Of a stretch of 64,000 nt of DNA, positions 10,352 to 25,216 are shown one piece after another. The translations under genes were made by a program, and so were the position numbers. Every line of letters starts with the position of its first letter. Positions within the stretch are counted from its first letter, which is position 1. The notes beneath the pieces were generated by a model. It made no database searches, was not told the origin of the DNA, and saw nothing but the letters and a program-made list of their open reading frames with translations. Source of the DNA: Paenibacillus graminis (GTDB taxonomy: Bacteria; Bacillota; Bacilli; Paenibacillales; Paenibacillaceae); assembly GCF_000758705.1 (NCBI RefSeq), contig NZ_CP009287.1, positions 4,340,001 to 4,404,000 on the forward strand, in the 5' to 3' direction.

Positions 10352-13300
10352 GTGAATTCTCCTTCCCGTCGGCTGTACCTGCAAAGCTCAGATGAAGTAA
10401 ACCCCGGACATCTTCCGGGTCCAGTGCGATAGGTCCCAAGATCAGAAAGGTAGGCTGTGTCCAGAGCGTTTCCCCGTTCAGAAGAGAAAGCTGATAATTC
10501 ACACCCTGACAGATCCCCTTGTTGTTCACATAAACTGCTGAGCTTTGATTAGGATAACTGCTCACCACCTGCAGCATATCCTGACGTGAAGCCGCGCCGA
10601 TACGCAATAGTCCCTTGGATTGAAGCTGTGCCTCCAGCTTGCCGAGCGAGAATTGCCCTTGCCCCGGGACTTCTACCCATCCTTCTGTAAAGACTTCAGG
10701 CGAAGGTCTGAAGAAGTTATCATCGGCGAACGAATAATGCGGCAGCGCTTCGCCGCTTCCGTTGGTCACGGAATGCTGCACACAGAGAACAGGAACACCC
10801 GGCAGCATAAGGTAATGCTGATGGATGACTATTCCCCGGTTCACTTCGTGCTTCGTGATGCTGGTAGTAATACGGAGTCCCTTCCAGACATTGCCGTACA
10901 CATCCTTCCGCTCTGCCCAATCTGTACTTCTCGGCTCCTGCTCCCGGCTGAATCCGCCTAAACGGGGGATATCCACACCGAGCCCGCCATGCCAAGGGTT
11001 CCACCAGGAATGCGGGACCGGTTCCGGGTACGAAGTATCCAGCCATTCTGCGCCGTTGTGCTTCAAGGAATGCACCACACTGCCAAAGCCGGGCGCAGCC
11101 GCTATGGAAAGAACCCCGTTGTTCACCGTATACACAGGACCTGCTGCACTCTCATCTATTTCACAGGTGACGCTGCCGTCAGTCTGAGGGAACCACAGAG
11201 CCGACCGCTCCTGAATCCAATCCTCGCCGCGGTACACGGCCCGGAGTTTCCGGCCCGGTTCGCCTTGTCCCTGGCCATTCTTGTTCTCGGAGGAAATCTC
11301 TATATGGGCTGAATGGAGGTGCTGTTCCGGGTCCAGTTCAACCACAGCCATTTGCCGTTCAGGTTCCCCACCTTCTTGCATATGCAGCTCGAGTCTCCCG
11401 GCAAGCGGTGCCATCTTTCGTTCGATCAGCTCCGCGCTCAGCAGCCCTGCTGCAAACGGATTGCCGCCGCCGACTACCAGTTCCAGGTGATTGTCCAGCA
11501 GCGGAACAACCGGGGCGGTCAATTTCAAGGCAAAGGAGCGGAAATCAGACCACTTGAGGAAGGTATTCAGCGCAAATATAACCGGGTTCGTTTTCACTAC
11601 GGCTCCGGCAGCAATCCGGCCAAGCTCATGCTCCAAGCCGAGTGGATAATCCGAGCGGAGCAGCTTCAAGGAAGGGTCCCAACAGATCCCGCATGTGACG
11701 CTCTCTTCTTTGGAGAACAGCCAGTTTTCTGTAATTTTAGCGCTATCCCAATTCGCAGGATCGCTGGAGTAGGAGTTGCCCATATCGACATAACGGCCCT
11801 GGTACGGCAGGATGAGCCGGCTGCCGAAGAAACCAAAGTTCGTCAGCAAGTGCAAGTTTTCTTCCAGCGCTCTGCTGCTGGTATTGCATATTTCGTAATG
11901 AAATTCGGCAATGCCGTTCGCGGACAGCTTGGACACCGACTTGATCTGCAGGCCGGAGAAATCCTCCGACTCATATAGGGCTTCGAGAACCTGGTCCTCC
12001 CCTTCGGCATAGATTTTCACTTCTGCAGCCTGCTTTTTGGAGAATTCCTGTGAAAACGGCTTGCCCAGCTTCGGATAGTTCCACCAGAAATTGTGGCGGG
12101 AGCCGGGATACTCGATCCACATATTGTTATCCAGCTTGTTCATATGTAACGAGCATGCCCCGTTCACGGCGACCCACTGATCACCGTTTTGCCCTCCGTA
12201 CCGGCCCTGCGTGCCTTTGAGCAAAGCGGAGAGCTTGCTTGTGAAGGTGAACTCTTTTTGTCCAGCGGGGACAGCCGTTACCTCTACCTCATGTGATAAA
12301 AGCCCGTAGGACCGCAGTCGGAATGGTGCGGGTATGGCTGCTTTGCCTTTCGCCGGTACCGTGAAGCGCACCTTACGGTCCGCCCATTCCACGATATCCG
12401 TCTCCGGCCATTCGAAGGAGAACTCTGCTTCCGTGGCAAAATGATTTTCTGCATTCAGGTAGAGCATGGCCGGAATACCCGGATACAGCCCGCCCGCTTG
12501 CAATGCAACCTTCATCTTGACCGGGAATTCCGGTGCGATGCCAATCCTGAATTCGGCCCGTTTGCCATTGATGACCCATATGCTCATAACCACAGGATGG
12601 GTCTTCTTGTTGTTCTGCTCTTCCAGGATCGGGTCCAGTTCAAATTCTCCTTCTATCATTACCGTTTCACCTGGAGCAATCGTTTGCGAGACATCCAGGG
12701 CATAACGGATACACTTATTATTCTGTCCCTTGATCTCAATCGTCATGGCAGCGGCTGAGCGGTTTTCAATACGATACTGAACCTTATAGGCGGAACCGAA
12801 TACGAGATCATGATCATCGATAAATGTAGAGATTGCATAATCCGGTGTATCCAGCGCGGTCAGTCCGCGTCCGCTTTTCTCAAATTCCGCCCGTAAGGCA
12901 AGCGCTCCCTTGCGCCAAGTGTAATCGAAGAAATCGAAACCGCGCTCTGTGCGGCCATCCGGCTCAATCACCAGTTCACGCGTACTGTCAGCGTACCAGT
13001 CCAGCTCATCGAAGTAAGGAGCCAAGGCCTCAGTCTGTAAAAGAGTCGGAATAAAGTTCATGAGGTGAACGTAATCGTCATTTTTTTCCCAGAAGAACCC
13101 GCATTTCTTGTACATCGGTACAGCCTTGGTATTGCCTGCCCAGGTAAATAAATCGAGCCGCGGCCAGCCCGCTTCTACCGTCTGGCGGACAGCTTTCAGA
13201 ATCAGATTGCGGCCAACCTTACAGCCGTGATAATCAGGGCGGACATTCAGCAGCGGGACATACATCGCGCCTTCATCCTGATGGTAGTGCGAGAAGCTGC

Positions 13301-13508
13301 AAAAGCCGACAACCTCCCCGCCGTCCACAGCAAGAAACGCATGAAGATGAGACGACACTTCCATCATCCGGCGGATACTGTCCTTTGTTTTCTGGCTGGT
13401 TCCGCCGCCCCAGCTGTCATTGCTGCGGTTCCACATTTCTGCAAGCGCTCCCGCGTAAGAAGGGTCATATTCGATAATCCGGACTTGCTCCGCAACGGTA
13501 TTTGCCAT
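10338..13508 (-). CDS. GNAT acetyltransferase fused to a large beta-sandwich (carbohydrate-enzyme-like) region
   Basis: A 1056-residue cytoplasmic protein. Residues about 8-160 form a GNAT domain: acetyl-CoA loop in LLNVRPDYHGCKVGRNLILK, then VPMYKKCGFFWEKNDDYVHL. Residues about 175-1056 are a long, beta-rich region with internal sandwich segments at about 230-420 (FGSAYKVQYRIENRS..., WVINGKRAEFRIGIAPEFP). A later part has conserved aromatic and acidic patches (HSWWNPWHGGLGVDIPRLGG, FADDNFFRPSP) that resemble beta-sandwich domains of glycoside hydrolases or sugar epimerases. No signal peptide is present. The ATG at 13508 has AAGGAG eight bases upstream. It leads a two-gene operon with the amidohydrolase. 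A catalytic role for the large region is inference. Confidence 0.75.
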   Translation of the reverse strand: MANTVAEQVRIIEYDPSYAGALAEMWNRSNDSWGGGTSQKTKDSIRRMMEVSSHLHAFLAVDGGEVVGFCSFSHYHQDEGAMYVPLLNVRPDYHGCKVGRNLILKAVRQTVEAGWPRLDLFTWAGNTKAVPMYKKCGFFWEKNDDYVHLMNFIPTLLQTEALAPYFDELDWYADSTRELVIEPDGRTERGFDFFDYTWRKGALALRAEFEKSGRGLTALDTPDYAISTFIDDHDLVFGSAYKVQYRIENRSAAAMTIEIKGQNNKCIRYALDVSQTIAPGETVMIEGEFELDPILEEQNNKKTHPVVMSIWVINGKRAEFRIGIAPEFPVKMKVALQAGGLYPGIPAMLYLNAENHFATEAEFSFEWPETDIVEWADRKVRFTVPAKGKAAIPAPFRLRSYGLLSHEVEVTAVPAGQKEFTFTSKLSALLKGTQGRYGGQNGDQWVAVNGACSLHMNKLDNNMWIEYPGSRHNFWWNYPKLGKPFSQEFSKKQAAEVKIYAEGEDQVLEALYESEDFSGLQIKSVSKLSANGIAEFHYEICNTSSRALEENLHLLTNFGFFGSRLILPYQGRYVDMGNSYSSDPANWDSAKITENWLFSKEESVTCGICWDPSLKLLRSDYPLGLEHELGRIAAGAVVKTNPVIFALNTFLKWSDFRSFALKLTAPVVPLLDNHLELVVGGGNPFAAGLLSAELIERKMAPLAGRLELHMQEGGEPERQMAVVELDPEQHLHSAHIEISSENKNGQGQGEPGRKLRAVYRGEDWIQERSALWFPQTDGSVTCEIDESAAGPVYTVNNGVLSIAAAPGFGSVVHSLKHNGAEWLDTSYPEPVPHSWWNPWHGGLGVDIPRLGGFSREQEPRSTDWAERKDVYGNVWKGLRITTSITKHEVNRGIVIHQHYLMLPGVPVLCVQHSVTNGSGEALPHYSFADDNFFRPSPEVFTEGWVEVPGQGQFSLGKLEAQLQSKGLLRIGAASRQDMLQVVSSYPNQSSAVYVNNKGICQGVNYQLSLLNGETLWTQPTFLILGPIALDPEDVRGLLHLSFAGTADGKENSHADH

Positions 13509-13990: not shown

Positions 13991-14009
13991 ATTCACACTA
14001 TCCTTTCGG

Positions 14010-14038
14010 GTAGTACCTATCCTATTAGTGCGTACTAC
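14010..14038. promoter_or_regulatory. operator-like dyad between hxlR and the ureohydrolase gene
   Basis: GTAGTAC (14010-14016) and its exact inverse GTACTAC (14032-14038) are separated by 15 bp. The dyad lies in the promoter zone shared by both divergent genes. HxlR proteins bind dyads of this type and usually control the divergent gene; the assignment is inferred from position. Confidence 0.55.
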
Positions 14039-14095
14039 TTTTTTATTTGTGCCCAGTTTATACTAACCGTACTTTGATGTAAAGGAGAGCAAGAA

Positions 14096-15010
14096 ATGAC
14101 CCAAAAAACAATTCGTCTGTTAATGCCGCAATGGCAAGGCGGTAACAACCCAAACTACTCTTTTGGTGCCGAACTGCTTGCATGGCTGGCTCCGGACAAT
14201 GATCAACCCCTTATTCACGTACCCGTTCAAGCCTATGATGGAACCCCGCTGCACAACGAGAAAGGCATGTATGGAAGGACACAGCTGCTTGAGCAATTAG
14301 AGGCTGCCCGGCATCTCATCGATGCTTATAAGCCGGACCGTATTGTAATGTTTGGCGGCGACTGCTTAGTCGAACAAGCCCCATTTGCCTATTTAAACGA
14401 ACGTTATGACGGGGAATTAGGTTTAATCTGGATCGATGCCCACAGTGATTTAGTCAGATATATTGGCTATGACAACGGACATACTTTACCTCTTGGGAAT
14501 CTTTTGGGAGAAGGAGATAAGGAGTTTGCAAGACATGTGAAAACCCCGCTCAAACCTGAAAATGTCTTTATTGCGGGATTAGCTGCTCCTACAGAGCAAG
14601 AAATGGAGGTGATTTCAGGAGCGTTTCATAGTCTTGGCATAACTCCTGAAGAACAAGATACAGAGATGATTCAGAGACTGGGTATAAGAACTGCCGGAAC
14701 CCAAGAGTTAATGAACAGTACTGAATCTATAAAAGAGTGGATTAAGGAAAGTGGCATTAAACACCTGGCTATTCACCTGGATTTAGATGTGCTTGATCCA
14801 AAGGCATTCCGTTCCTTATTATTTGCCAACCCTGAAGCCCCTTATAATTATTCTCCTGCGGGAACCATGCCAATGCCTCTGCTATTGCATCTGATGAAAG
14901 AACTATCGGAAGCAACCGAGGTGGTCGGATTAGGTATAACGGAGCATATGCCATGGGATTCGATTAATTTAAAGAATCTTCTTGGAGAAATACCTATTCT
15001 AAATACGTAA
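14096..15010 (+). CDS. arginase/agmatinase family protein with altered metal site
   Basis: A 304-residue member of the ureohydrolase (arginase/agmatinase/formiminoglutamase) fold, which hydrolyses guanidino compounds at a Mn2 centre. Two of the three metal motifs are intact: WIDAHSDL (Asp114, His116, Asp118) and IHLDLDVLDP (Asp229, Asp231). The first, normally GGDHS, reads GGDCL, so the usual His ligand is Cys90. The substrate-binding block is also divergent (NGHTLPLGNLLG). Activity and substrate are therefore uncertain. The protein may use one metal, a different metal, or bind rather than hydrolyse. TAAAGGAG precedes the start. It is divergent from an HxlR regulator and is probably induced through it. 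Confidence 0.85.
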   Translation: MTQKTIRLLMPQWQGGNNPNYSFGAELLAWLAPDNDQPLIHVPVQAYDGTPLHNEKGMYGRTQLLEQLEAARHLIDAYKPDRIVMFGGDCLVEQAPFAYLNERYDGELGLIWIDAHSDLVRYIGYDNGHTLPLGNLLGEGDKEFARHVKTPLKPENVFIAGLAAPTEQEMEVISGAFHSLGITPEEQDTEMIQRLGIRTAGTQELMNSTESIKEWIKESGIKHLAIHLDLDVLDPKAFRSLLFANPEAPYNYSPAGTMPMPLLLHLMKELSEATEVVGLGITEHMPWDSINLKNLLGEIPILNT

Positions 15011-15065
15011 AGTCATAAACCGAAATCGTATAGAATAATTATCTGCTTAATTATGAAAATGCAAC

Positions 15066-15108
15066 AAAAACGCGCTCCCTTGCCGAGGCATCGGAGCGCG
15101 CTTCTTTT
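15066..15108. terminator. bidirectional terminator between the ureohydrolase gene and the sulfur cluster
   Basis: CGCGCTCC (15071-15078) pairs with GGAGCGCG (15093-15100). It is flanked by A-rich sequence on the left and a T-rich stretch on the right, so it can serve both the plus-strand ureohydrolase gene and the minus-strand nine-gene cluster. Confidence 0.75.
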
Positions 15109-15120
15109 GCATCCCGTCTG

Positions 15121-15894
15121 TTAATTCGAAGCCTGGAACACATACTCCCCTTCGCCAATCCGGATGGTTTGTCCCGCCAGCAGTTCGGAGTCCGTGTCCA
15201 GGATTACCTGCATGAACCGGTTCTCCTCCCCTTTGACGAAATCGTAGAACTTATCTCCGATCCGCAAGACAGCGGATGTATCCGTTGACTCCACAAACTC
15301 CAGGCCAAACAAATTCGCCCATTGCCTGGCGGCAGCGGCAGGGTCCGACACGTGAAAGACCGCCCGTCTGATCTCGGCATGGCCCGCAGGATGAGGCCGG
15401 ACGAGGCCGGAAGCCGTCAGCCTGGCCAACCGCTCTTCATCCGTTCCCTTCCACTGAATAATAAACGGATAGACCAGCCCCCCGAAATCTCCGGCGATGG
15501 TCATCATACGCCATTCGATCAAGCTGCCGGACATATCGAGGCGTTTGCCGTCCATAATGGGTGACAAGGTTAAGCCCGCTGCGGTTAACGAAGCTGCCAT
15601 TGCCTCAATATCATCGGTACGGATCACTACCCGGCTCAGCACTTCATGTTCAGGCAAAGCTGCAACGGCATCCTTGACTACCAGATTGTACCCGGTGGAC
15701 CGGGCCAATTCGGGCGACTCAATCCCCAGAAACTCGATGTAGGTCAGACCGAAGTAGCTTAACGTATTGAAGGTGCCCCAGTCCTTATGAGACCCTCCTT
15801 TAAAGGCAATCAGACCGTTTTCTCCAAAGACCTCAACGACATTGTCCAAATCGTTAATGTAATGAACCAAGTGATCCCATTGTTTGCTCGCCAT
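15121..15894 (-). CDS. VOC superfamily (glyoxalase-like) protein
   Basis: A 257-residue protein with two vicinal-oxygen-chelate-type halves. His8 (WDHLVHYIND) and Glu in the first half (YIEFLG) are in positions used as metal ligands. The second half (AVFHVSDPAAAARQWANLFGLEFVE) repeats the fold. It most resembles the glyoxalase-like Glyoxalase_3 group. VOC proteins include lyases, dioxygenases, thiol-adduct enzymes and binding proteins, so the reaction is unknown. It is the last gene of the nine-gene minus-strand cluster, starting three bases after the stop of the reductase gene and followed by a strong terminator. That tight spacing argues for a function in the same pathway. Confidence 0.8.
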   Translation of the reverse strand: MASKQWDHLVHYINDLDNVVEVFGENGLIAFKGGSHKDWGTFNTLSYFGLTYIEFLGIESPELARSTGYNLVVKDAVAALPEHEVLSRVVIRTDDIEAMAASLTAAGLTLSPIMDGKRLDMSGSLIEWRMMTIAGDFGGLVYPFIIQWKGTDEERLARLTASGLVRPHPAGHAEIRRAVFHVSDPAAAARQWANLFGLEFVESTDTSAVLRIGDKFYDFVKGEENRFMQVILDTDSELLAGQTIRIGEGEYVFQASN

Positions 15895-15897
15895 TGT

Positions 15898-16704
15898 CTA
15901 TTTCGCTCCCAGTTCAGTCGTTCGCTTGACCGCTGCCATTACACTGCGCTGCAGTCCGGCCGCGAAATCGCTGTTGTTCAGTTCATACAGACCGTGCATC
16001 CCCACCCCGCCCGGCGAGTTATTGATGTCCAGCAGCTGTCTGGGATGCAGCCCCGTCTGCCGCAGCATAAGCACGGCTCCTGCCATATTCTCCAGCGCGA
16101 CATTCCAGGCCTGCTCACGCGGCAATCCTGCCAGCACACCGGCATCCACAAGAGATTCAATGAAATAATAGATGTAGTTCGGCCCGGCTACACCGTATCC
16201 GGTGAAGACATCCAGGAGCGCTTCCTCCATATACTGGACTTTGCCGAACCCAAGCAGGAATTCGTCTACCTGCGCCCGCGAAGCGCTGGCGTTCAGCACG
16301 ACCCCGCTGTAGCCGTATCCCGTATCCGTCAGCGTATTTGGAATGACCCTGACAATCGGCCGTCCGGCTCCGAAAACTCCGGCCAGCTTTTCCAGTGTCA
16401 AACCGGCCACGATTGAAACGACCACGGCGTCCGGCGAAGCGAGCCGGGTTACAGCTTGTCCCAGTTCGTCCAGTGCATCCTGCGGCCGGACGGCCAGCAC
16501 AATCAGTCCGGCTTCAGTAAGATATGCTTCCTGGCTCCGGCCCGTATCCACACCATAGGCCTTGGTCAACACCTGAAGACGCGCCTCATTGATATCCGTA
16601 ACACTGATCCGGCCGGCGGCAATGGTCTGATTGGCTATGACTACCCGGATAATGGCCTCAGCCATCTGCCCGCCCCCGATAAAATGAATCCGTTGCTCAA
16701 TCAA
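15898..16704 (-). CDS. pyrroline-5-carboxylate reductase family protein
   Basis: A 268-residue NAD(P)H-dependent imine reductase of the ProC family. The Rossmann motif FIGGGQMAEAII opens the protein; AVRPQD and RVIPNTLTDTG follow. The P5CR dimerisation domain is recognisable in AGPNYIYYFIESLVDAG and INNSPGGVGMHGL. I place the start at a TTG (16704) preceded by GAGGGGGAAG. Upstream codons in the same frame overlap the metQ gene and are not needed. True proline synthesis is possible, but the operon of sulfur-compound import and C-S cleavage suggests a cyclic imine or ketimine substrate. The SPGG motif continues VG rather than the usual TT. Confidence 0.82.
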   Translation of the reverse strand: MIEQRIHFIGGGQMAEAIIRVVIANQTIAAGRISVTDINEARLQVLTKAYGVDTGRSQEAYLTEAGLIVLAVRPQDALDELGQAVTRLASPDAVVVSIVAGLTLEKLAGVFGAGRPIVRVIPNTLTDTGYGYSGVVLNASASRAQVDEFLLGFGKVQYMEEALLDVFTGYGVAGPNYIYYFIESLVDAGVLAGLPREQAWNVALENMAGAVLMLRQTGLHPRQLLDINNSPGGVGMHGLYELNNSDFAAGLQRSVMAAVKRTTELGAK

Positions 16705-16721
16705 CGATCTTCCCCCTCTGA

Positions 16722-17570
16722 TTAGTTGTTCTTCCACGCTTCCGGCAGAATGAATCCGTCGTATTTCTCCAACCCGGTAATGTATTCCTCGAACTCTTTG
16801 GACTCGTAGGCAGCCTTCAGATCCTTGGCCCACTGCGTATTCTCATCCTTCCGGTTCACGGATACGATGATGCGGTGCTGCATAGGCGTATTTTCTATTT
16901 TGAGTGCGTCGGTAATCTTCTTGCCGGCGCTGGCGATGTAATTTCCGTTAATTACGCCGTAATCCACATCCTGCAGGGATACCATAATTTGTGCCGGGTC
17001 GAGAATTTTGATATCGATCTTATATTTATCCGGCTCCATGTTGTTGATGTTGAAGTCCGCTAGATTTGAGCCTTCTTTAATTTTAACCCAGCCCAGCTCT
17101 TCCAAAATGCGGAGTGCCCGCTCCTGGTTCACCGGGTCATTGGGAACAGCTACCGTTGTACCGTCCTTCACATCGTCAAGCGTAGTGTGCTTGACAGAGT
17201 AGATTCCTTGCGGCGCGCCAGGCACATAGGCGATTCCTACCATATCCGCGCCAATTTCGCCGTTAATAGCTTCCATATACGCTGTGCTCTGGAAGATGCT
17301 CGCATCGATCGTACCTTCCTTCATCGCCGGGTTGACCTGCATGTTTTGCGAGAAGGTCTTAATATCAACCTTGTAGCCCTGCTTCTCCAGAATCGGCAGA
17401 ATCGCTTGGCGGAACTGCTCCTCATAGGTGCCGACGCCAAATCCCACAACAATCTCCTTCTTTTCACTTTCTGCTGCACCGGCTTTCGAGTTATCCGCCG
17501 CATTGTTGGAGCCACAAGCCGTCAGAACCAGAACGAAACCAATCAGGAATAGGGTCATTGCTTTTTTCAT
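16722..17570 (-). CDS. metQ: MetQ/NlpA family substrate-binding lipoprotein
   Basis: Extracellular binding lipoprotein of a methionine-type (MUT family) ABC importer, 282 residues. A lipoprotein signal with lipobox VLTACG anchors it near residue 19. The mature part matches MetQ (EIVVGFGVGTYEEQFRQAI, FQSTAYMEAINGE, VAVPNDPVNQERALRILEELGWVK, YGVINGNYIASAG). MetQ relatives carry methionine, its sulfoxide, or other small sulfur amino acids. The start overlaps the stop of the UroD-like gene by four bases (ATGA), a clear sign of translational coupling. It therefore sits apart from metN and metI, with an enzyme gene in between, an unusual order. Confidence 0.93.
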   Translation of the reverse strand: MKKAMTLFLIGFVLVLTACGSNNAADNSKAGAAESEKKEIVVGFGVGTYEEQFRQAILPILEKQGYKVDIKTFSQNMQVNPAMKEGTIDASIFQSTAYMEAINGEIGADMVGIAYVPGAPQGIYSVKHTTLDDVKDGTTVAVPNDPVNQERALRILEELGWVKIKEGSNLADFNINNMEPDKYKIDIKILDPAQIMVSLQDVDYGVINGNYIASAGKKITDALKIENTPMQHRIIVSVNRKDENTQWAKDLKAAYESKEFEEYITGLEKYDGFILPEAWKNN

Positions 17571-18601
17571 ACGCGAATCTCTCCTTCAAATACGGATTTT
17601 TTTAACTGTACCAATGCTTCGTCGGTAACATTAAGCGGAATGGCACAGTTGGGAGCGAGTATAAAAGGCTGATCCTTCATTTGACCCAGCGCTTCCGCAG
17701 CTTGCCGCTGAATTTGCGAAACGTCGTTGGCGGCAAACAGGGCGTGATCGACACCGCCAACCTTCGTCGCGGTCAATGCGGCTTCCAGCCCCGGGTTTCC
17801 TTCAGCCTTCGTATCCCAGCTGATCCCGTCCACCGGATAGTCGTTGAACCGTTCGGGATGGGCATGAGCTCCACAGGTATGGAGCACATTTTTCCCATAG
17901 CCCGCAGCGTCCAATACAATACTGTCATAAGGTCTCGAAAATTCGTTAAATAACGACTCATCAAACATCCCAGGGTGTGCAGTCCCCGTCACCGCATAGA
18001 ACAGGCCGTCTGATCCCGCCCGCTTCAGCTCCTGCACATAATCGGCCATCGTCAGGGAGATCGCATGCAGGGCATGGTGCGCTGCCGCCCGGTGTTCTTT
18101 GAACAAGGAATCCAGGGTCACCGGCTGCTCGATGCCGAACACGGTCGGGTACACATAAGCGGAACGCCCGACAATAAACAGCAGCACCGTCAACGGGGAG
18201 AAGACTGTCTGGATTAAGGGTGTATCCGGCAGCCCCCGGCGGATTTTGGCTACAGCTTCAAGCTGCTCCAATAATGGGGCTGACTGTGTGGCCTTTTTCA
18301 CTTCAAGCTGCCACAGCTGAGATGCTGCCGGAACCGCCGTTGTAAGCTGCCGGGGAAATACCGTCCTATACTGGCCGAAATCATATTCATTTCCCCAAGC
18401 TTCGGCCAAATAGGTGGCTCTGGGGTTGATCTTCACCCAGTCCCAATCATATTGCCTGGTAAAAGCGATGGTCGTCTCAGCCAGATCGTCCGCATTCTGC
18501 TCCCTGTCAATGAAATGGCGCCAGCCGCTGACGATGGGCCGGTCCGCCTGCTCCCCCGATAAAATCGCCTGAAACCGTTCCTGTCTGCTCCATTTACTCA
18601 A
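17567..18601 (-). CDS. uroporphyrinogen decarboxylase (UROD)-fold protein, putative methyltransferase
   Basis: A 344-residue TIM-barrel protein of the UROD superfamily. It lacks the haem-pathway signature and has a HTCGAHAHPERF segment, the type of Cys/His pair that binds Zn and activates thiols in MtaA/CmuA-like cobalamin or thiol methyltransferases. Other landmarks are YDWDWVKINPR, GSDGLFYAVTG and ILAPNCAIP. It starts at TTG (18601) behind AGGAGG and overlaps metQ by four bases. Position inside a met-type importer operon suggests a methyl-transfer step on an imported sulfur compound. Neither a corrinoid protein nor a reactivator is nearby, so free cobalamin, folate or a thiol could be the partner. 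Confidence 0.78.
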   Translation of the reverse strand: MSKWSRQERFQAILSGEQADRPIVSGWRHFIDREQNADDLAETTIAFTRQYDWDWVKINPRATYLAEAWGNEYDFGQYRTVFPRQLTTAVPAASQLWQLEVKKATQSAPLLEQLEAVAKIRRGLPDTPLIQTVFSPLTVLLFIVGRSAYVYPTVFGIEQPVTLDSLFKEHRAAAHHALHAISLTMADYVQELKRAGSDGLFYAVTGTAHPGMFDESLFNEFSRPYDSIVLDAAGYGKNVLHTCGAHAHPERFNDYPVDGISWDTKAEGNPGLEAALTATKVGGVDHALFAANDVSQIQRQAAEALGQMKDQPFILAPNCAIPLNVTDEALVQLKKSVFEGEIRV

Positions 18602-18630
18602 TTCGTTTGCCTCCTATTGTAAGACAAGCT

Positions 18631-19290
18631 CTAATAGCGGCGGATCTTTCTCGCTAACGAGTTGCCCAAAGATTGAATTCCCTGTACGAAAATAACAAGT
18701 ATAACCACCGTCGCAACTACAACTACAGTGTCAAACCGTTGGTACCCATACACAATCGCCAAGTCTCCGACACCGCCGCCGCCGACCGTTCCGGCCATCG
18801 CCGTTGCGCCAATCAACCCGATGGTTGCCGTGGTCAAAGACAGAATCAGCGAGCCGACAGCCTCCGGCAGCAAGAAATAGCGGATAACCTGAAACGGAGT
18901 GGCTCCCATCGATTCTGCCGCTTCCATAATGCCAGGATTCACCTCAAGCAGGGAATTTTCGACCAGACGACCGATATACGGAGCGATATACAGGATGAGC
19001 GGTACAATTGCGGCGTTTGTTCCGATGGAGGTATGGACAATCATCCGGGTGAACGGAATAATTGCGACAAGCAAAATGATAAAAGGCAGAGAACGAATAA
19101 TGTTGATAACCGGATTAAGCAAGGTATAGAGCAGCTTGTTCTCCAGAACACCCCCGGGACGGGTAACGACGAGCAAGATGCCGATGGGTATCCCGATCAA
19201 CGAGCCTACGAACAAGGACATCCCCACCATATAGACCGTATCGATGATTGCTTGTATAAACTGCTCACTGGTCACTGTTGTTGAGAACAT
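18631..19290 (-). CDS. metI: MetI-type ABC transporter permease
   Basis: A 219-residue integral membrane permease with five hydrophobic segments and the cytoplasmic coupling loop EAAESMGATPFQVIRYFLLPEA that contacts the ATPase. Family features include IGIPIGILL near the N-terminus and GATAMAGTVGGGGVGDLAI near the C-terminus. Its start lies 26 bp inside the 3' end of metN, so the ATPase and permease are coupled in translation. Together with MetN and MetQ it forms a complete methionine-type importer (MetN2-MetI2 with lipoprotein receptor). Confidence 0.93.
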   Translation of the reverse strand: MFSTTVTSEQFIQAIIDTVYMVGMSLFVGSLIGIPIGILLVVTRPGGVLENKLLYTLLNPVINIIRSLPFIILLVAIIPFTRMIVHTSIGTNAAIVPLILYIAPYIGRLVENSLLEVNPGIMEAAESMGATPFQVIRYFLLPEAVGSLILSLTTATIGLIGATAMAGTVGGGGVGDLAIVYGYQRFDTVVVVATVVILVIFVQGIQSLGNSLARKIRRY

Positions 19291-20308
19291 GCTTATCCAC
19301 CTCCTCCAAATCGATTTCTCTACGCTTCAGGAAGGCAAGCGCTTTGTCCATTTCTTCAGAACTTCCCTTAAGTTGAATGATCATCGTCCCCAGGGTGGTG
19401 TCCTGAATCTCCGTCATATTGGCAAACAGAATATTGACCTTGACATCGCTTGCGCGGATCAATTCGTACAATACCGGCTCCGAGGCGCGTTCCCCGAAGA
19501 ATTCCAGCTTGTACAAACGGCCTCCCTCATCTGTCGTCAATGTTTTCCTCATGCTGCCAGTCATACTGGTCTGAATAACCGTACTCACAAAATTCTGTGT
19601 CGTCGGATGCTGCGGATGCCCGAATACCTCCAGCACGCTGCCCTGCTCGATGATCCGGCCGCCTTCCATCACCGCCACCTTATTGCAAATCTCCTGTATT
19701 ACAGACATTTCATGGGTAATAATCATAATCGTAATATGATATTCCGCGTTAATCCTCTTGAGCAATTGTAAAATAGAGCGGGTCGTCTGCGGGTCCAGCG
19801 CCGAGGTTGCTTCATCGCATAGCAGCACTGAAGGATTCGAAGCCAGCGCACGGGCAATGCCCACCCGCTGCTTCTGTCCACCCGACAATTCGCTCGGGTA
19901 GCTCCCTGCTTTGTCGCTCAAGCCGACGAACTCGAGCAGTTCCATGACGCGCTGGTGAATCTCGTTTTTATTCTTTTTGAGCAGCACAAGGGGAATTGCC
20001 ACATTGTCAAAGACCTTTTTGGATTCCAGCAGGTTGAAATGCTGAAAGATCATGCCGATATTTTTTTTGGCGGCACGCAGCTCTTTATCGGTGTACGCTC
20101 CCAAATCATGCCCGTCGACAAACACCTGCCCCTTCGTCGGCCTTTCCAAGTAATTGACCAGCCGGATCAGCGTGCTCTTGCCCGCGCCGCTATAGCCGAT
20201 CACTCCGAAGATATCGCCTTTATCAACCTTCAGCTGAACTCCCTTAATGGCATCATTTGAGATTCCCTTGCGGAGATACGTCTTGTAAACGTCTCTTAAT
20301 TCGATCAT
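19265..20308 (-). CDS. metN: MetN-type ABC transporter ATP-binding protein with NIL domain
   Basis: ATPase subunit of the methionine-type importer, about 347 residues. The nucleotide-binding domain (1-245) has Walker A GYSGAGKST, signature LSGGQKQRVGIARAL and Walker B LLCDEATSALD. The C-terminal NIL regulatory domain (about 265-340) binds the transported amino acid in well-studied MetN proteins and inhibits transport when the internal pool is high. Retention of NIL suggests the imported ligand or its product exerts feedback. GTG 20311 and ATG 20308 are adjacent; AAAGGAG can serve either. Confidence 0.93.
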   Translation of the reverse strand: MIELRDVYKTYLRKGISNDAIKGVQLKVDKGDIFGVIGYSGAGKSTLIRLVNYLERPTKGQVFVDGHDLGAYTDKELRAAKKNIGMIFQHFNLLESKKVFDNVAIPLVLLKKNKNEIHQRVMELLEFVGLSDKAGSYPSELSGGQKQRVGIARALASNPSVLLCDEATSALDPQTTRSILQLLKRINAEYHITIMIITHEMSVIQEICNKVAVMEGGRIIEQGSVLEVFGHPQHPTTQNFVSTVIQTSMTGSMRKTLTTDEGGRLYKLEFFGERASEPVLYELIRASDVKVNILFANMTEIQDTTLGTMIIQLKGSSEEMDKALAFLKRREIDLEEVDKHVLNNSDQ

Positions 20309-20342
20309 CACCCATCCGCTCCTTTCATTAAATGTTCTGGGG

Positions 20343-21503
20343 CTAAGCCTGCTCCTTCAGCTGCACCAGCGCCCGCTCGGCTAAGAGTGCAAAATAACGG
20401 GCGGCAGGAAGCAGAGCGGCTTCGTCCACGTCGAAGCGCGGATGATGCAGCGCATAAGCGGGACCCGTGCCGATATTTACAAAAGCGCCCGGTATTTGCT
20501 GCAAATACAGCGCAAAATCTTCCCCCCCCATTTGCGGCGGGATATCATGTACCTCATACCCGGCCTGCCCGGCGATCTCTTTGCTGAAGTCAGCCCAGAC
20601 GCCGTCGTTGATCGTCGCCGGCGGTCCCGGAGCCCAATGCAGCCGTGCCTTCGCTCCGGCGGCTCCAGCGATGCCTTCAATGATTCGGGTCATTTTCTCC
20701 GGCATGCTTGCGCGAATTTCTTCATTATAAGTGCGGACGGTTCCCTCCAGTTCCACCCGTTCCGGCAATACGTTCCAGGTATGGCCTCCGTTGATCCGGG
20801 TGACACTCAGCACTACCGTTTCCCTTGCACCGCATTGACGGCTGACGATGGTTTGGAGCGTAGTAATAATCTGAGCTGCCGTTACGATCGCATCCACGCC
20901 ATTCTCCGGTGTGGCGGCATGGGCGCCTATCCCTTCCACCGAAATTTCAAACCGGTCGACCCCTGCCGTGAATGGTCCTGTTCTCGTCCCGAAGGTTCCT
21001 GTCGGCAGTTCCGGCGAGTTATGCAGCCCGAATATGGCGGCCACATCGTCCAGTCCTCCCGAAGCCAGCACACTCTCGGCGCCATGACCGGTTTCCTCCG
21101 CTGGTTGAAACAGAATTTTCACACTGCCCGGCAGCCCGGCTTCACGGGCTTTCAGCAACATTGCGGCTCCCAGCATGACCGCTGTATGAAAATCATGGCC
21201 GCAGGCGTGCATTTTTCCCGGAATTCCCGACGCAAACGGCAACCCGGTCTGTTCCTCTATCGGAAGTGCATCGATATCGCAGCGGATAGCTACGACGGGT
21301 CCTTCACTCTGCCCGACTTGGGCAATAAGCCCGGTTGGCAAAGGAAGATCCAAGACGGAAATATGTGCCTTGGCCAGCCATGTCCGCAGCTTGTCCGTTG
21401 TCTTAAATTCTTCGTAAGATAATTCCGGCTCGCGATGCAGACTTCTGCGAACGTCAATCAAGTGTTGTTCCAGTGCTTGCATCATTTCATCCTGCGGTTT
21501 CAC
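20343..21503 (-). CDS. M20 family amidohydrolase (N-acyl amino acid deacylase-like)
   Basis: Metal-dependent cytoplasmic amidohydrolase of the YxeP/hippurate hydrolase group, about 386 residues. Metal ligands are in the expected blocks: ACGHDFHTA, PAEETGHGAE, IFGLHNSPELPTG and MGGEDFALYL. The dimerisation domain lies at about 180-290. Enzymes of this group remove N-acetyl, N-succinyl or similar groups from amino acids, including S-substituted cysteines. ATG 21512 lies directly against the AGGGGG ribosome site, so I prefer the GTG at 21503 with normal spacing. Between the C-S lyase and MetN, it is probably the deprotection step of the pathway. Confidence 0.88.
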   Translation of the reverse strand: MKPQDEMMQALEQHLIDVRRSLHREPELSYEEFKTTDKLRTWLAKAHISVLDLPLPTGLIAQVGQSEGPVVAIRCDIDALPIEEQTGLPFASGIPGKMHACGHDFHTAVMLGAAMLLKAREAGLPGSVKILFQPAEETGHGAESVLASGGLDDVAAIFGLHNSPELPTGTFGTRTGPFTAGVDRFEISVEGIGAHAATPENGVDAIVTAAQIITTLQTIVSRQCGARETVVLSVTRINGGHTWNVLPERVELEGTVRTYNEEIRASMPEKMTRIIEGIAGAAGAKARLHWAPGPPATINDGVWADFSKEIAGQAGYEVHDIPPQMGGEDFALYLQQIPGAFVNIGTGPAYALHHPRFDVDEAALLPAARYFALLAERALVQLKEQA

Positions 21504-21536
21504 CGGGATCATTCCCCCTCTTGTTTATGTCATATT

Positions 21537-22751
21537 TTATTTAGAAATGGAGTTCCGCTCCGTATAAGGGAACAATGCTGCCAGCGCTTGATCGAAATCT
21601 GCGATAATATCGTGCACATCCTCCAGCCCGACCGAAACCCGGATCAAACCGTCCGTAATTCCGAATTGAACCCGTTCCTTCTGCGGAATGGAAGCGTGGG
21701 TCATAGAGGCCGGATGCTGCACCAGCGTCTCGGGATCACCCAGGCTGAAAGAAATCATCGCCAGCTTGAGCGAGTTGATCAGCTTTTTCCCTTCTGTTAT
21801 CCCTCCTTTGACTTCGAATGAGACGATACCTCCCATGCCTTTCATCTGCGCAAGAGCCAGCTTGTGCTGGGGATGGGATTCAAGGCCCGGATAGAACACT
21901 CTTTCGATATAAGGATGAGCCTCGAGATATTCAGCGACAGTCTGGGCGTTGCGGCAATGTCTTTCCACCCGCAAAGCCATCGTCTTCATCCCTCTGAGGA
22001 TCAGAAATGAATCCCAGGCGTTCAGATTCTGCCCCAAATCGCCCATCAGCCTTTTTCGCATAAAGCGGATCACCTCTTTGCTGCCCACGACGAATCCGGC
22101 AAGCACGTCCCCATGGCCGTTGATGTATTTCGTGGCACTGTGCACCACAACATCGGCTCCCAGCTCCAAAGGCTTTTGCAGACAAGGGCTCATGAAGGTG
22201 TTGTCAACAATGACAGGAAGCTTATGCAGCTTGCAGGCTTGGGTAATTTGCTTGATATCAAGGATCGTCAGCTTCGGGTTGGAGGGTGTTTCGATATAGA
22301 CAGCTTTCGTATTGGGTTTAATCGCCTGAAGCATTCCGGCAGTATCCGTACAGTCGACAAAGTCGCATTCGATACCGAAACGAGGTGCGAGGGAAGTTAG
22401 GAAGTTATATGTTCCGCCGTACACATCCTTAGTTACCAGGACATGATCTCCATGCTTCAGGAAGCCAAGCAGGGCAATGGAGATGGCGGCCATTCCGCTG
22501 GAAACCCCCAAGGCGTCTTCAGCGCCTTCCAGTGCGGCGATTTTTTTCTCCAGTGTGCGGGAGGTCGGATTTCCGTATCTGCCGTAATACACGCCTTCCG
22601 CTTCACCTGCCACCACGGAGGCTGCCGTTTCCGCATCAGGAAACGCATAGGCAACCGCAGGGATAACGCTTTGGGAAATGGCGCCCGTCCGGGGATCGGG
22701 AGACTGGCTCTCATGGATAATCTTTGTGTCCATCTTCCATTCTGATTGCAT
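21537..22751 (-). CDS. PLP-dependent trans-sulfuration enzyme (cystathionine gamma-lyase/synthase family)
   Basis: A 404-residue Cys/Met-metabolism PLP enzyme of aspartate aminotransferase fold. The PLP lysine is near residue 208 in SATKYINGHGD. Other signatures are YYGRYGNPTSRTLEKKIAALEG, SSGMAAISIALL, VDNTFMSPCLQKPLELGAD and the C-terminal GITDGLIRVSVGLED. The usual YSR cofactor motif reads YGR here. The group includes cystathionine gamma-synthase, gamma-lyase, beta-lyase and methionine gamma-lyase, which sequence alone does not separate well. In this operon a lyase role, releasing a thiol from an imported S-substituted amino acid, is the best guess. AAGGA precedes the ATG by nine bases. 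Confidence 0.92.
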   Translation of the reverse strand: MQSEWKMDTKIIHESQSPDPRTGAISQSVIPAVAYAFPDAETAASVVAGEAEGVYYGRYGNPTSRTLEKKIAALEGAEDALGVSSGMAAISIALLGFLKHGDHVLVTKDVYGGTYNFLTSLAPRFGIECDFVDCTDTAGMLQAIKPNTKAVYIETPSNPKLTILDIKQITQACKLHKLPVIVDNTFMSPCLQKPLELGADVVVHSATKYINGHGDVLAGFVVGSKEVIRFMRKRLMGDLGQNLNAWDSFLILRGMKTMALRVERHCRNAQTVAEYLEAHPYIERVFYPGLESHPQHKLALAQMKGMGGIVSFEVKGGITEGKKLINSLKLAMISFSLGDPETLVQHPASMTHASIPQKERVQFGITDGLIRVSVGLEDVHDIIADFDQALAALFPYTERNSISK

Positions 22752-22756
22752 GCGGC

Positions 22757-23437
22757 TCAGTCCTTTCTGGTTTCGTCAACCGCTTTTAGACGTTTTAGCG
22801 CTGTGGATAAGCTGTTGTAAATATGATCCTGCATTACTTTTTCCGCGCCTTCTTCATCCCGGTCAACGATCCTCTGCAAAATCAGGCTATGCTCTTCATA
22901 GGCCTGCGAGTTCCATTCTCCGTGCAGGGAGACATAGCGGCAATAGCGGAGCGTGTGATCCCGGAGCTGGCTCAAAATTCTTTCAAAAGTATGCAGGCCG
23001 CTTATTTCCGATAAATAATCATGAAATTCAAAACCAAACGGCAGAGCATCCTTATCGGAGCCTAAATGCAAGGATTGATTCGTTTTTTCAACCATCGCCG
23101 TCATATGTTGAATATCTTGCGGGGTGGCGTTTTTGGCGGCATTTTTAGCAATATGCCCTTCCAGCATGCCGCGAACAAGAAAAATCTCTTCCAGCTCTTC
23201 CAAAGTAACCGGCGCTACCTTCAGCCTTCCATTGGGCTGGCGGACAAGAAAATCCTCATTCTCCAATCGTTGAATCGCCTCTCTCAATGGAGTACGGCTG
23301 ACGCCGAGCAGTGCAGCAAGGCTTTCTTCGTGTACGTTCTGGCCTGGTTTCAGTTCATTATCAATGATCTTCTGCTTCAGTTCCAAATAGGTGTTATCCT
23401 TGGACAGCCTGCGTGTCCGTAACATTGAGCTGCTCAT
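22757..23437 (-). CDS. GntR family (FadR/FCD-type) transcriptional regulator of the sulfur cluster
   Basis: A 226-residue repressor or activator: N-terminal winged helix (about 10-75, LAALLGVSRTPLREAIQRLENEDFL) and C-terminal all-helical FCD ligand domain (about 85-215, FEFHDYLSEISG supplying metal-type Asp/His). FCD regulators usually bind organic acids or amino-acid derivatives. The start is ATG 23437 with AGGAG at good distance; longer frames read through the promoter. It is the first gene of the cluster, five bases before the PLP lyase, with a perfect palindrome upstream. Autoregulation and control of all nine genes by the pathway substrate is the natural inference. Confidence 0.9.
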   Translation of the reverse strand: MSSSMLRTRRLSKDNTYLELKQKIIDNELKPGQNVHEESLAALLGVSRTPLREAIQRLENEDFLVRQPNGRLKVAPVTLEELEEIFLVRGMLEGHIAKNAAKNATPQDIQHMTAMVEKTNQSLHLGSDKDALPFGFEFHDYLSEISGLHTFERILSQLRDHTLRYCRYVSLHGEWNSQAYEEHSLILQRIVDRDEEGAEKVMQDHIYNSLSTALKRLKAVDETRKD

Positions 23438-23504
23438 GGGCGCTTCTCCTCTATATTGCGAATTCTTAACTCCAATCACTCCATTGTGCATTTGTGTAAC
23501 TGTA

Positions 23505-23520
23505 TAATTGTATACAATTA
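23505..23520. promoter_or_regulatory. perfect palindromic operator for the GntR regulator
   Basis: TAATTGTATACAATTA is a perfect 16-bp palindrome located 68 bp upstream of the gntR start. Its TNGTATACNA core resembles FCD-subfamily GntR sites (T-GT-N-AC-A). It overlaps the probable promoter region of the nine-gene cluster. Confidence 0.7.
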
Positions 23521-23524
23521 GCAC

Positions 23525-23852
23525 AAAAGTCTCACCTCTCTCTTCCCTTTCTCTCTGCGGTTTGTAGATTTAGGCTTATAATACCGATTGAAAATCAATT
23601 TGTCTATACTTTCATGTCATTTTTCATCACATTTCGTCATATTTTTTTTAGAAAACGCTCTAAAAACACATAATATCGCAATTCGCGTCATATAAAGTAT
23701 CACAAAAAAGCCGGAATGCATAGTGCCTCATGCTCCAGCTTGCTTATTAGGTAAAAAGCACCCGTTGAACCTTAGATGCGCTATTGTCGAAAAACAACGA
23801 ACCGCTTTTGCTTTCCTATTTTTTTAGAATGAATTAACATCATACGCCCACT
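23525..23852. other. AT-rich intergenic region upstream of the sulfur cluster
   Basis: About 330 bp without a gene, containing the upstream part of the cluster promoter and a terminator at 23703-23741. A short TTTTTAGA/TCTAAAAA dyad lies near 23645-23670. No riboswitch (S-box or T-box) features were seen. Confidence 0.45.
23703..23741 (-). terminator. terminator downstream of the DUF2975 remnant
   Basis: On the minus strand an imperfect stem (AAGCTGGAGCAT with ATGCATTCCGGCTT) is followed by six T. It is placed to end transcription of the decayed gene before the sulfur-cluster promoter. Confidence 0.6.
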
Positions 23853-24115
23853 TCAGACCGTTAAATCATTTTCTGATTTTATATTAATAGCTTCTTGTAA
23901 AAGTCTTTGGAGAACAGCAGCAAAAACGGCAAGCACCATTGAGGCGAAAATAATGACCAATCCCATTGGTATGAAACTTGGCGGATCAACTCTCTTTCCC
24001 ATAAGATAGTAAATATACACAAAGCGAGAATGGGGATTCCCATAAGAATAACAGCCATCTGGATTTGAATTTCGAGCAACAGGCATATGCCCCATTTGTC
24101 GCCACATTGTTCCAT
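23853..24115 (-). pseudogene. DUF2975 family membrane protein, internally deleted and frameshifted
   Basis: The minus strand contains two family pieces in different frames. An N-terminal piece (MAVILMGIPILALCIF, near 24010-24060) matches the first membrane helix of DUF2975. A C-terminal piece (PMGLVIIFASMVLAVFAAVL, then QRLLQEAINIKSENDLTV, stop at 23853) matches the last helix and tail. Intact proteins have about 160 residues and four helices; the middle two helices are missing and the frame changes at the junction. The XRE regulator that normally follows such genes is absent too. The remnant sits directly behind a strong terminator. Confidence 0.75.
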
Positions 24116-24124
24116 TTGATAATA

Positions 24125-24163
24125 AAAATTGTCCTCCAAGGCTATTCTTTGGAGGACAATTTT
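24125..24163. terminator. strong bidirectional hairpin terminator
   Basis: A perfect 15-bp stem (AAAATTGTCCTCCAA/TTGGAGGACAATTTT) with a 9-nt loop. It lies 16 bp past the stop of the minus-strand oxidoreductase gene. Confidence 0.85.
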
Positions 24164-24178
24164 GTTCATTTAATAACC

Positions 24179-25105
24179 TTATTGATTCAAGCCCTGACTG
24201 ACTCTGATGACTACATTGCCCTTTTTATGCCCTTGTTCCACATACCGGTGAGCCTCTGCCATTTGTTCTAACGGATAGTACCGGTCAATCACCGACTTAA
24301 TGTTACCTGACTCCATCAGTTCTTTGAGGAGCTGCAGATCCTGGATGCGTACCTTGGCAATTCCCTGCCCATCTACTGTGACGAATGATCCGTGTGGCTT
24401 TAACGCTTTTTTGCGGCTGGATTTGGGGAGTTTGCCAACGGCATCGAAGATGATGTCATACTGTCCGCCTCTTTGGGTACAATCTTCAGCCGTGTAGTCA
24501 ATGACCTGAGAGGCGCCCAGCGATTTCACCCATTCCAGATTTGCAGTGCTGCATACCCCGTCAACTTCTGCCCCAAAGTGCCTCGCAAGCTGCAGCGCGA
24601 AGGTCCCTACTGTGCCTGAAGCTCCATAGATTAGAACCTTTTGTCCCTTTTGTATGTTGGCTTTTCTGAGAAAATAAAGTGCAGTGGTCCCCCCATAAAG
24701 CGCAGCGGCAGCTTCTTCATAGGTCGTATTGGCCGGTTTGATGCTCACCATTCCGTCTTCAGACAGACAGGCATACTCAGCGTGTGCGCCAAAACGCATC
24801 CCCGTTAAGGCAAAAACCGGGTCGCCTTGCTTAAACCTTGCGACTTCACTGCCTACGGCTACAACTTCACCGGCTAATTCCACTCCCAAAACAGGTTTCC
24901 TGGGTTTGCTGAGACCTAAAACGAGACGCATTGGCAGCCATAACAGGGCAGGACTCTTAAAAGTCCGTACTCTAATGTCCCCTGCAGTTACAGTTGACGC
25001 ATGAACCTTTACGAGCAGCTCTTTGCGTTTGGGGGCAGGTTTTTCCATATCTATAAGGTGCAAAGTTTCCGGTGAACCGTATTTTGTGCATACAATGGCT
25101 TTCAT
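24179..25105 (-). CDS. NAD(P)-dependent quinone-oxidoreductase-like alcohol dehydrogenase (MDR family)
   Basis: A 308-residue cytosolic medium-chain dehydrogenase/reductase. The N-terminal GroES-like domain (about 1-120) lacks the Cys/His ligands for catalytic zinc, placing it with quinone oxidoreductase and enoyl reductase relatives. The nucleotide-binding domain has the motif VLIYGASGTVGTFALQLARHFGA at about 145-170. The ending HRYVEQGHKKGNVVIRV is typical of the family. GGGAGG precedes the ATG. A strong terminator follows, and the upstream MalT-like regulator gene points the same way about 110 bp away, so co-transcription is possible but unproven. Confidence 0.9.
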   Translation of the reverse strand: MKAIVCTKYGSPETLHLIDMEKPAPKRKELLVKVHASTVTAGDIRVRTFKSPALLWLPMRLVLGLSKPRKPVLGVELAGEVVAVGSEVARFKQGDPVFALTGMRFGAHAEYACLSEDGMVSIKPANTTYEEAAAALYGGTTALYFLRKANIQKGQKVLIYGASGTVGTFALQLARHFGAEVDGVCSTANLEWVKSLGASQVIDYTAEDCTQRGGQYDIIFDAVGKLPKSSRKKALKPHGSFVTVDGQGIAKVRIQDLQLLKELMESGNIKSVIDRYYPLEQMAEAHRYVEQGHKKGNVVIRVSQGLNQ

Positions 25106-25216
25106 GAGTTTCCTCCCGGATGTCGATTTTCAACAAGTATAGCTTCAGCGGGGGAGGGTCATGTAGATACTTAAGTATGGTCTTAGGCAAAAAGCTGCTA
25201 ATAGCTGTTGGAGACT

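Follow-up and report, generated by a model that had tools for sequence, protein, structure and literature searches.

The 64,000-nucleotide (nt) stretch of DNA analysed here (the window) comes from the soil bacterium Paenibacillus graminis, whose 7.17-Mb genome is a single contig, and carries nine close-packed, co-directional genes on its minus strand at positions 15121-23437. These encode a GntR regulator, a pyridoxal phosphate (PLP) enzyme, an M20 amidohydrolase, the three parts of a MetNIQ-type importer, a protein with the uroporphyrinogen decarboxylase (UROD) fold, a protein resembling pyrroline-5-carboxylate reductase (P5CR) and a VOC protein. We propose, with a probability of about 0.6, that the operon forms a scavenging module within the methionine and sulfur amino-acid network, in which a non-canonical methionine-like amino acid is imported and converted towards methionine by way of a zinc-dependent alkyl transfer.

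In the proposed module, the importer with its re-shaped pocket would take up a methionine-like compound other than plain methionine. In the lineages that carry them, the M20 enzyme would strip an N-acyl group and the PLP enzyme would perform C-S (gamma/beta) chemistry. The UROD-fold protein would bind zinc and a thiolate, e.g., homocysteine or the substrate's own sulfur, and transfer a methyl (or alkyl) group, no dedicated corrinoid protein being required. The P5CR-like protein would reduce (or oxidise) a C=N bond of a compound other than pyrroline-5-carboxylate, and the VOC protein would supply an isomerase, lyase or oxygenase step. Zinc binding, substrate, step order, methyl-transfer direction and every enzymatic activity in this scheme are our inferences.

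Operon layout

The operon and its boundaries comprise the following features (window coordinates; protein lengths in amino acids, aa).

23505..23520, no strand: operator-like palindrome TAATTGTATACAATTA, a perfect inverted repeat 67 nt upstream of the gntR start
22757..23437, minus: gntR, FCD-type GntR regulator, 226 aa (PF00392, PF07729)
21537..22751, minus: PLP enzyme of the Cys/Met metabolism family (Cys_Met_Meta_PP), accessory (PF01053)
20343..21512, minus: M20 amidohydrolase of the N-acyl amino acid deacylase type, accessory (PF01546, TIGR01891)
19265..20308, minus: metN-like ABC ATPase with C-terminal NIL domain (PF00005, PF09383)
18631..19290, minus: metI-like permease (PF00528)
17567..18601, minus: UROD-fold protein, candidate zinc S-methyltransferase, core (HxC...C triad H241, C243, C319)
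16722..17570, minus: MetQ-like lipoprotein (NlpA type) with altered ligand pocket, core (PF03180; 4-nt overlap with UROD)
15898..16704, minus: P5CR-like reductase with altered substrate motifs, core (PF14748, PF03807; TTG start)
15121..15894, minus: VOC (Glyoxalase_3) protein, core
15059..15112, minus: terminator hairpin after VOC (inverted repeat and fold)

From gntR to VOC the intergenic gaps are 5, 24, about 34, -26, 29, -4, 17 and 3 nt. The start codons of gntR (23437) and P5CR (TTG at 16704) were revised, both being shorter than the GTG starts of their open reading frames (ORFs), and metN has an alternative GTG start at 20311. An earlier note on this DNA had described nine co-directional genes with overlaps or tiny gaps, running from a palindrome to a terminator, and had named a family for each; the coordinates, inverted repeats and fold bear out the arrangement, and profile scans of the Pfam and NCBIfam type agree with all nine families.

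Conservation of the gene set

Conservation was assessed on 80 related loci, the best of 246 from a scan of a genome collection with an alignment of 39 UROD sequences. A total of 52 loci, with UROD identity of at least 50%, constitute the close set, and the remaining 28 fall below 50%. Linkage was counted within a 9 kb range with identity cut-offs set per gene, and weaker homologues are missed by these counts. The window UROD itself is 93-94% identical to the proteins of Paenibacillus jilunlii, P. ihuae, P. albidus and P. riograndensis.

Fifty of the 80 loci link UROD, metQ, P5CR and VOC, invariably on one strand, in the order UROD-metQ-P5CR-VOC and within 5 kb. In the close set, metQ is linked in 50 of 52 loci, P5CR and VOC in 49 each, and metN and metI in 48 each. 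The corresponding values are 33 for GntR, 29 for M20 (including L064, at 34% identity, and L063, on the opposite strand) and 17 for the Cys/Met PLP enzyme, six of which are metI-like at 38-40% identity. Given these counts and the constant order in 50 loci, the conserved unit is the four-gene core UROD-metQ-P5CR-VOC, usually accompanied by metNI, rather than the nine genes, and the PLP C-S lyase and the M20 deacylase are optional add-ons.

The grouping of UROD, P5CR-like and MetNIQ genes highlighted in the earlier note is thus kept in relatives (48 to 50 of 52 close loci per gene), yet the complete nine-gene pathway it claimed is not. The whole set occurs in nine close Paenibacillus loci (L031-L039), and, since linkage of the PLP and M20 genes is patchy, C-S cleavage and deacylation are add-ons and the claimed order of steps is not established.

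The position of metNI varies: it runs divergently to the core in L061, L062 and L077, and is not near it in L058 and L063. Among 100 Paenibacillus genomes, UROD is found in 50 (in G043 and G052 only as pieces) and, by by-eye comparison, VOC in the same 50; two further genomes present a remote VOC match (31-34% identity). In the tree of 81 UROD sequences, the 52 metQ-linked ones group with those of L060 and L078 (fork 99/93).

Readthrough or recoding at the UROD-metQ junction was also considered, as in L042, L044, L049 and others metQ lies in frame behind the UROD TAG, giving an open frame of 630-665 aa with one TAG. This was rejected because the TAG sits in TAGGAG, a Shine-Dalgarno-like sequence before metQ, and because the junction in other relatives has different stops, spacings and frames. 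The junction is therefore taken as ordinary translational coupling.

Importer and ligand pocket

MetN obtains 385 bits with TIGR02314 (cut-off 499.7) and MetI obtains 209.6 bits with PRK10782 (cut-off 212). According to the accessible text of PMC6739813, the amino and carboxyl groups of the ligand of Neisseria meningitidis MetQ are held by R156, N213 and N238, and its thioether by Y81, F98, H100 and Y103. The window MetQ-like protein keeps the contacts F98, Y103, R156 and N213 and has lost the other three methionine contacts (Y81 to N, H100 to S, N238 to I), whereas all seven are intact in the control L120, a MetQ encoded in the same genome with metNI neighbours behind an S-adenosylmethionine (SAM) riboswitch. 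Of the 51 linked homologues, 48 have I at position 238, one has V and one (L058) has N, the residue being unread in the last; the motif with the His-to-Ser change is present in all 51. The alignment near 238 is loose by one residue, and neither neighbour is Asn in the window protein. Given three of seven contacts are changed and the control keeps all of them, the sequence makes plain methionine an unlikely ligand; the protein would more likely bind an amino acid whose side chain is altered or whose amino group is substituted.

Reductase, VOC and accessory enzymes

PYCR1 holds a substrate analogue via Ser233 and Thr238, as described in the portion available of PMC7560826. In the window P5CR-like protein the Ser233 position is kept, the Thr238 position is Gly, and the SGSGPAY motif, which another P5CR-like protein of the genome (L115) has, reads GVAGPNY. 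The latter motif appears in 48 of 50 linked P5CR homologues, and GGVG or AGVG in 49 of 50; the exceptions are L058, a truncated ORF which fails both motifs, and L064, which fails GVAGPNY. Because the substrate-binding Thr is lost, pyrroline-5-carboxylate is an unlikely substrate, and the two replacements favour the non-proline reductase suspected in the earlier note.

A fold search with the VOC model, which is indicative of fold only, returned HPPD, hydroxymandelate synthase and extradiol dioxygenases, ranked below an uncharacterised Staphylococcus aureus protein. Methionine gamma-lyase models give the PLP enzyme its highest scores, which stay under their cut-offs (473.7 against 549.7 bits for TIGR01328). 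The M20 enzyme passes TIGR01891 with 374.9 bits (cut-off 153.75), a model that covers many N-acyl amino-acid hydrolases.

UROD-fold protein

The protein adopts the UROD fold, its predicted model being closest to Methanosarcina MtaA, and its sequence has weak matches to MtaA/MtbA-type models, far under their cut-offs. The family profile matches no Protein Data Bank (PDB) sequence at E 0.001; relaxing the threshold to E 10 gives weak, short matches only. The His-Cys-Cys triad (H241, C243 and C319 in the window protein) is present in all 81 sequences, and the text available of PMC10418091 ties this ligand set to S/Se-methyltransferases. The protein is most likely of the S-methyltransferase type, with a His-Cys-Cys site that likely binds zinc; the invariant triad thus lends sequence support to the methyl transfer for which the earlier note had cast the protein.

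Family scans identify no corrinoid protein or Ram activase among the nine operon genes. B12-related domains were scanned in 22 UROD genomes, a sample chosen to represent arrangements other than close Paenibacillus, for which completeness is unreported. No PF02607 match was found in 10 of the 22, and nine of these 10 also have no PF02310 match over the cut-off; PF02310 matches under the cut-off occur in three further genomes. The UROD enzyme appears to work without B12 partner proteins. A more specific suggestion, which we regard as doubtful, is that this corrinoid-independent S-methyltransferase passes a methyl group from the imported methylated amino acid to homocysteine, the core being a further methionine route beside MetE, MetH and BHMT-type enzymes that would be induced by methionine shortage in some bacteria and by substrate in others.

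Regulation

The window palindrome upstream of gntR contains the 12-mer ATTGTATACAAT. Besides the window, a by-eye count over the 34 loci with a linked gntR gives an exact copy upstream of gntR in 28 and a copy with one mismatch in four (L035, L040, L068, L093); it was not found upstream of gntR in L072 and L085. The whole genome holds ATTGTATACAAT in three places, and no wider GntR regulon emerges, the other two copies being within ORFs. With both the GntR and FCD domains confirmed and the palindrome conserved in relatives, the regulator and operator predicted here are consistent with those proposed earlier.

SAM riboswitches sense S-adenosylmethionine and control methionine and sulfur genes. 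No Rfam family reaches its gathering threshold anywhere in the window, hence it has no SAM riboswitch (RF00162). In 28 loci scanned for RNA families, chosen to sample arrangements other than close Paenibacillus, a SAM riboswitch precedes the module in seven, none of which has a linked gntR; among the scanned loci with a linked gntR (L040, L066, L067, L068, L071, L072, L085), it was found in none of seven. In L058, the riboswitch is at 9814-9923, 77 nt before UROD. In L069, L074, L075, L076 and L079, it is followed by a metI-like PLP gene, a MetE-like gene (C11), metNI, UROD and metQ. L073 too has the riboswitch ahead of a metI-like PLP gene, with a MetE-like gene, metNI and core genes downstream, and ORFs of 102 and 438 aa intervene before metN. 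The PLP protein of L073 passes the PRK08247 cut-off and the MetE-like protein of L069 that of PRK06520; elsewhere these proteins were assigned by sequence clustering. Given these riboswitches in relatives, the module is tied to methionine supply independently of annotation by similarity.

Neighbourhoods of more distant relatives

Where UROD identity falls below 50%, C-S lyases or homocysteine synthase lie alongside UROD in four of 28 loci. L085 (Sporosarcina) has an Opp-type binding protein, M20, GntR, a methionine gamma-lyase-like enzyme, UROD and an aldehyde dehydrogenase. In L094 and L096, a PatB-type C-S lyase adjoins UROD together with a branched-chain type importer, and L094 (Bifidobacterium) also has a MetB/C-like enzyme and M20. 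L106 has an O-acetylhomoserine sulfhydrylase, whose gene has a SAM riboswitch close by on the other strand, and an importer that clusters with the L094/L096 type. L084, also below 50%, carries the core. A sulfur or methionine role, which the earlier note had inferred, is therefore supported both by riboswitches at 7 of 28 scanned loci and by sulfur genes at 4 of 28 distant UROD loci.

Elsewhere, in L100, L101 and L105 (Lactobacillales), the distant UROD is directly behind an apparent ECF-type importer, the S component of which matches a riboflavin-transporter family in L100.

Boundaries and neighbouring genes

The terminator region at 15052-15118 has a fold of -37.9 kcal/mol (z -6.8) and is possibly bidirectional; this terminator is missing from the list of the promoter/terminator consensus scan. 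The same scan yielded 19 promoter-like sites in 14000-25200, against 11.3 +/- 3.2 expected; three are on the minus strand within gntR and UROD, and internal promoters are possible.

An arginase-family gene (14096-15010) is convergent with the operon, and its end adjoins the same hairpin. Positions 10338-13508 encode a 1056-aa protein that carries a GNAT acetyltransferase domain at its N terminus, while about 900 of its residues have no Pfam match.

Weighing the explanations

Several observations weigh against the scavenging module. The P5CR-like protein lies just over the curated proC cut-off (TIGR00112, 199.1 against 196.75 bits). The window operon has GntR and no riboswitch, and may respond to substrate instead of methionine need. 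Since six of the seven riboswitch loci come from related genera, the independent cases number perhaps two, and in those six metI/metE may be what the riboswitch controls, the other genes being carried along; one of the riboswitch loci, L075, is without P5CR and VOC. In L058, the clearest riboswitch case, the P5CR ORF is truncated in the assembly (217 aa) and MetQ has Asn at the 238 position. No linked C-S lyase or homocysteine synthase was found in 24 of the 28 distant loci, the neighbours of which were only partly scanned. The core can also split: a second metQ-P5CR-VOC set in the window genome is not accompanied by UROD, and L060 and L078 combine a core-clade UROD with another importer type and none of the other core genes.

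The second set is at L122:7578-10006 (about G000:C1 1406574-1408990), and its metQ, P5CR and VOC are 71, 68 and 57% identical. It is also without metNI and has a divergent glycerophosphodiester phosphodiesterase gene beside it, similar to a gene next to the M20 of L063. L060 and L078 have an acyl-CoA-dehydrogenase-like neighbour with weak, under-cut-off similarity to SfnB and sulfinopropanoyl-CoA desulfinase models. Their importer is of an amino-acid type; for the permease of L060, the one scanned, the top model is a cystine permease, with a score under the cut-off. In L075 (Amphibacillus), an aldose-epimerase-like gene, assigned by clustering, occupies the P5CR/VOC place.

A single linear pathway made up of all nine genes, acting on N-acyl-S-alkyl-cysteine or -methionine with C-S cleavage at its centre, is unlikely. 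It agrees with the full set in the nine loci L031-L039, and with the M20 genes that accompany UROD together with a methionine gamma-lyase-like enzyme in L085 and a MetB/C-like enzyme in L094. However, 35 of 52 close loci have no linked PLP enzyme and 23 no linked M20, hence neither step is obligatory, unless supplied from elsewhere in the genome. Slightly less probable is a cobalamin-dependent methyl transfer by UROD, which the fold nearest to MtaA and the weak, under-cut-off MtaA/MtbA-type matches would fit. A PF02607 protein is present in 99 of 100 Paenibacillus genomes, and methylcobalamin is the methyl donor of core-MetE, a related single-barrel enzyme, according to the text available of PMC7005905; free cobalamin may serve in the present case. 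Yet the operon has no corrinoid protein or activase gene, and a B12-binding domain over the cut-off is absent from nine of the 22 UROD genomes in the chosen sample. By by-eye count, PF02607 matches just once in 16 of the 50 Paenibacillus genomes with UROD, and in 15 of these 16 the match is in a MetH-sized frame (1145-1213 aa).

A role in resisting or consuming an antimetabolite amino acid (e.g., a methionine or proline analogue), in place of nutrition, would account for the altered MetQ pocket, the altered reductase and the patchy distribution (50 of 100 genomes), and VOC proteins often act in resistance. SAM riboswitch control in relatives nevertheless fits methionine supply, and an importer would be odd within a resistance system, which makes this explanation improbable. 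A plain methionine importer with unrelated passengers, its P5CR making proline, is highly improbable: although MetN has the usual NIL domain and P5CR passes TIGR00112, MetQ is without three of seven methionine contacts, the reductase has Gly at the Thr238 position and a changed SGSGPAY motif that L115 retains, and the order of the core is constant in all 50 loci with the four genes.

For the substrate of the favoured scavenging module, four candidates were considered and not adopted. S-methylmethionine would call for no reductase and no VOC protein; thioproline, if the P5CR-like protein oxidised it, would be compatible with M20 but not with UROD; betaines or N-methyl amino acids would match the lost Asn238 contact and nothing else; and methoxyvinylglycine-type toxins are speculation.

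If the scavenging module is real, an MtaA-like family best known from methanogens would act in Bacillales without a corrinoid partner protein and contribute to methionine supply. It would also provide a testable function for four gene families, of which UROD and VOC are found in 50 of the 100 Paenibacillus genomes searched, and the automatic names uroporphyrinogen decarboxylase, methionine-binding protein, proline-synthesis reductase and glyoxalase are probably misleading here.

Comparison with known systems

No published description of the gene combination or its parts was found among titles and abstract openings of the open-licence literature. The type 1 mlp clusters of Kountz and Balskus likewise have, in the accessible text of PMC10418091, a UROD-superfamily His-Cys-Cys protein, proposed as an S-/Se-methyltransferase, beside sulfur genes including methionine transporters. 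By comparison with the clusters as described there, the operon studied here has one UROD protein and no corrinoid partner gene, and its loci are mostly from Bacillales, some in genomes without a B12-binding domain over the cut-off. The nearest fold to the UROD model, Methanosarcina MtaA (4ay7), is a methylcobalamin:coenzyme M methyltransferase, whereas the UROD protein, at about 22% identity, has no corrinoid partner gene.

The Bacillus subtilis yxe/scm operon for S-(2-succino)cysteine, in the part available of PMC9706529, similarly combines an ABC importer with a deacetylase (YxeP) releasing a sulfur amino acid. By the families matched, however, the nine genes include no member of the YxeK, 2SL or YxeL kind known from that text, which in turn does not name UROD, P5CR-like or VOC proteins.

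As in the MetNIQ methionine importer, the operon has a MetN-like protein with NIL domain, a MetI-like permease and an NlpA-type lipoprotein, but the lipoprotein has three of seven contacts changed and the genes are embedded among those for UROD, P5CR-like and VOC proteins. With ProC/PYCR1, the P5CR-like protein shares the fold family, the nucleotide-binding domain and the Ser233 position, while differing in the Gly at the Thr238 position and in GVAGPNY for SGSGPAY.

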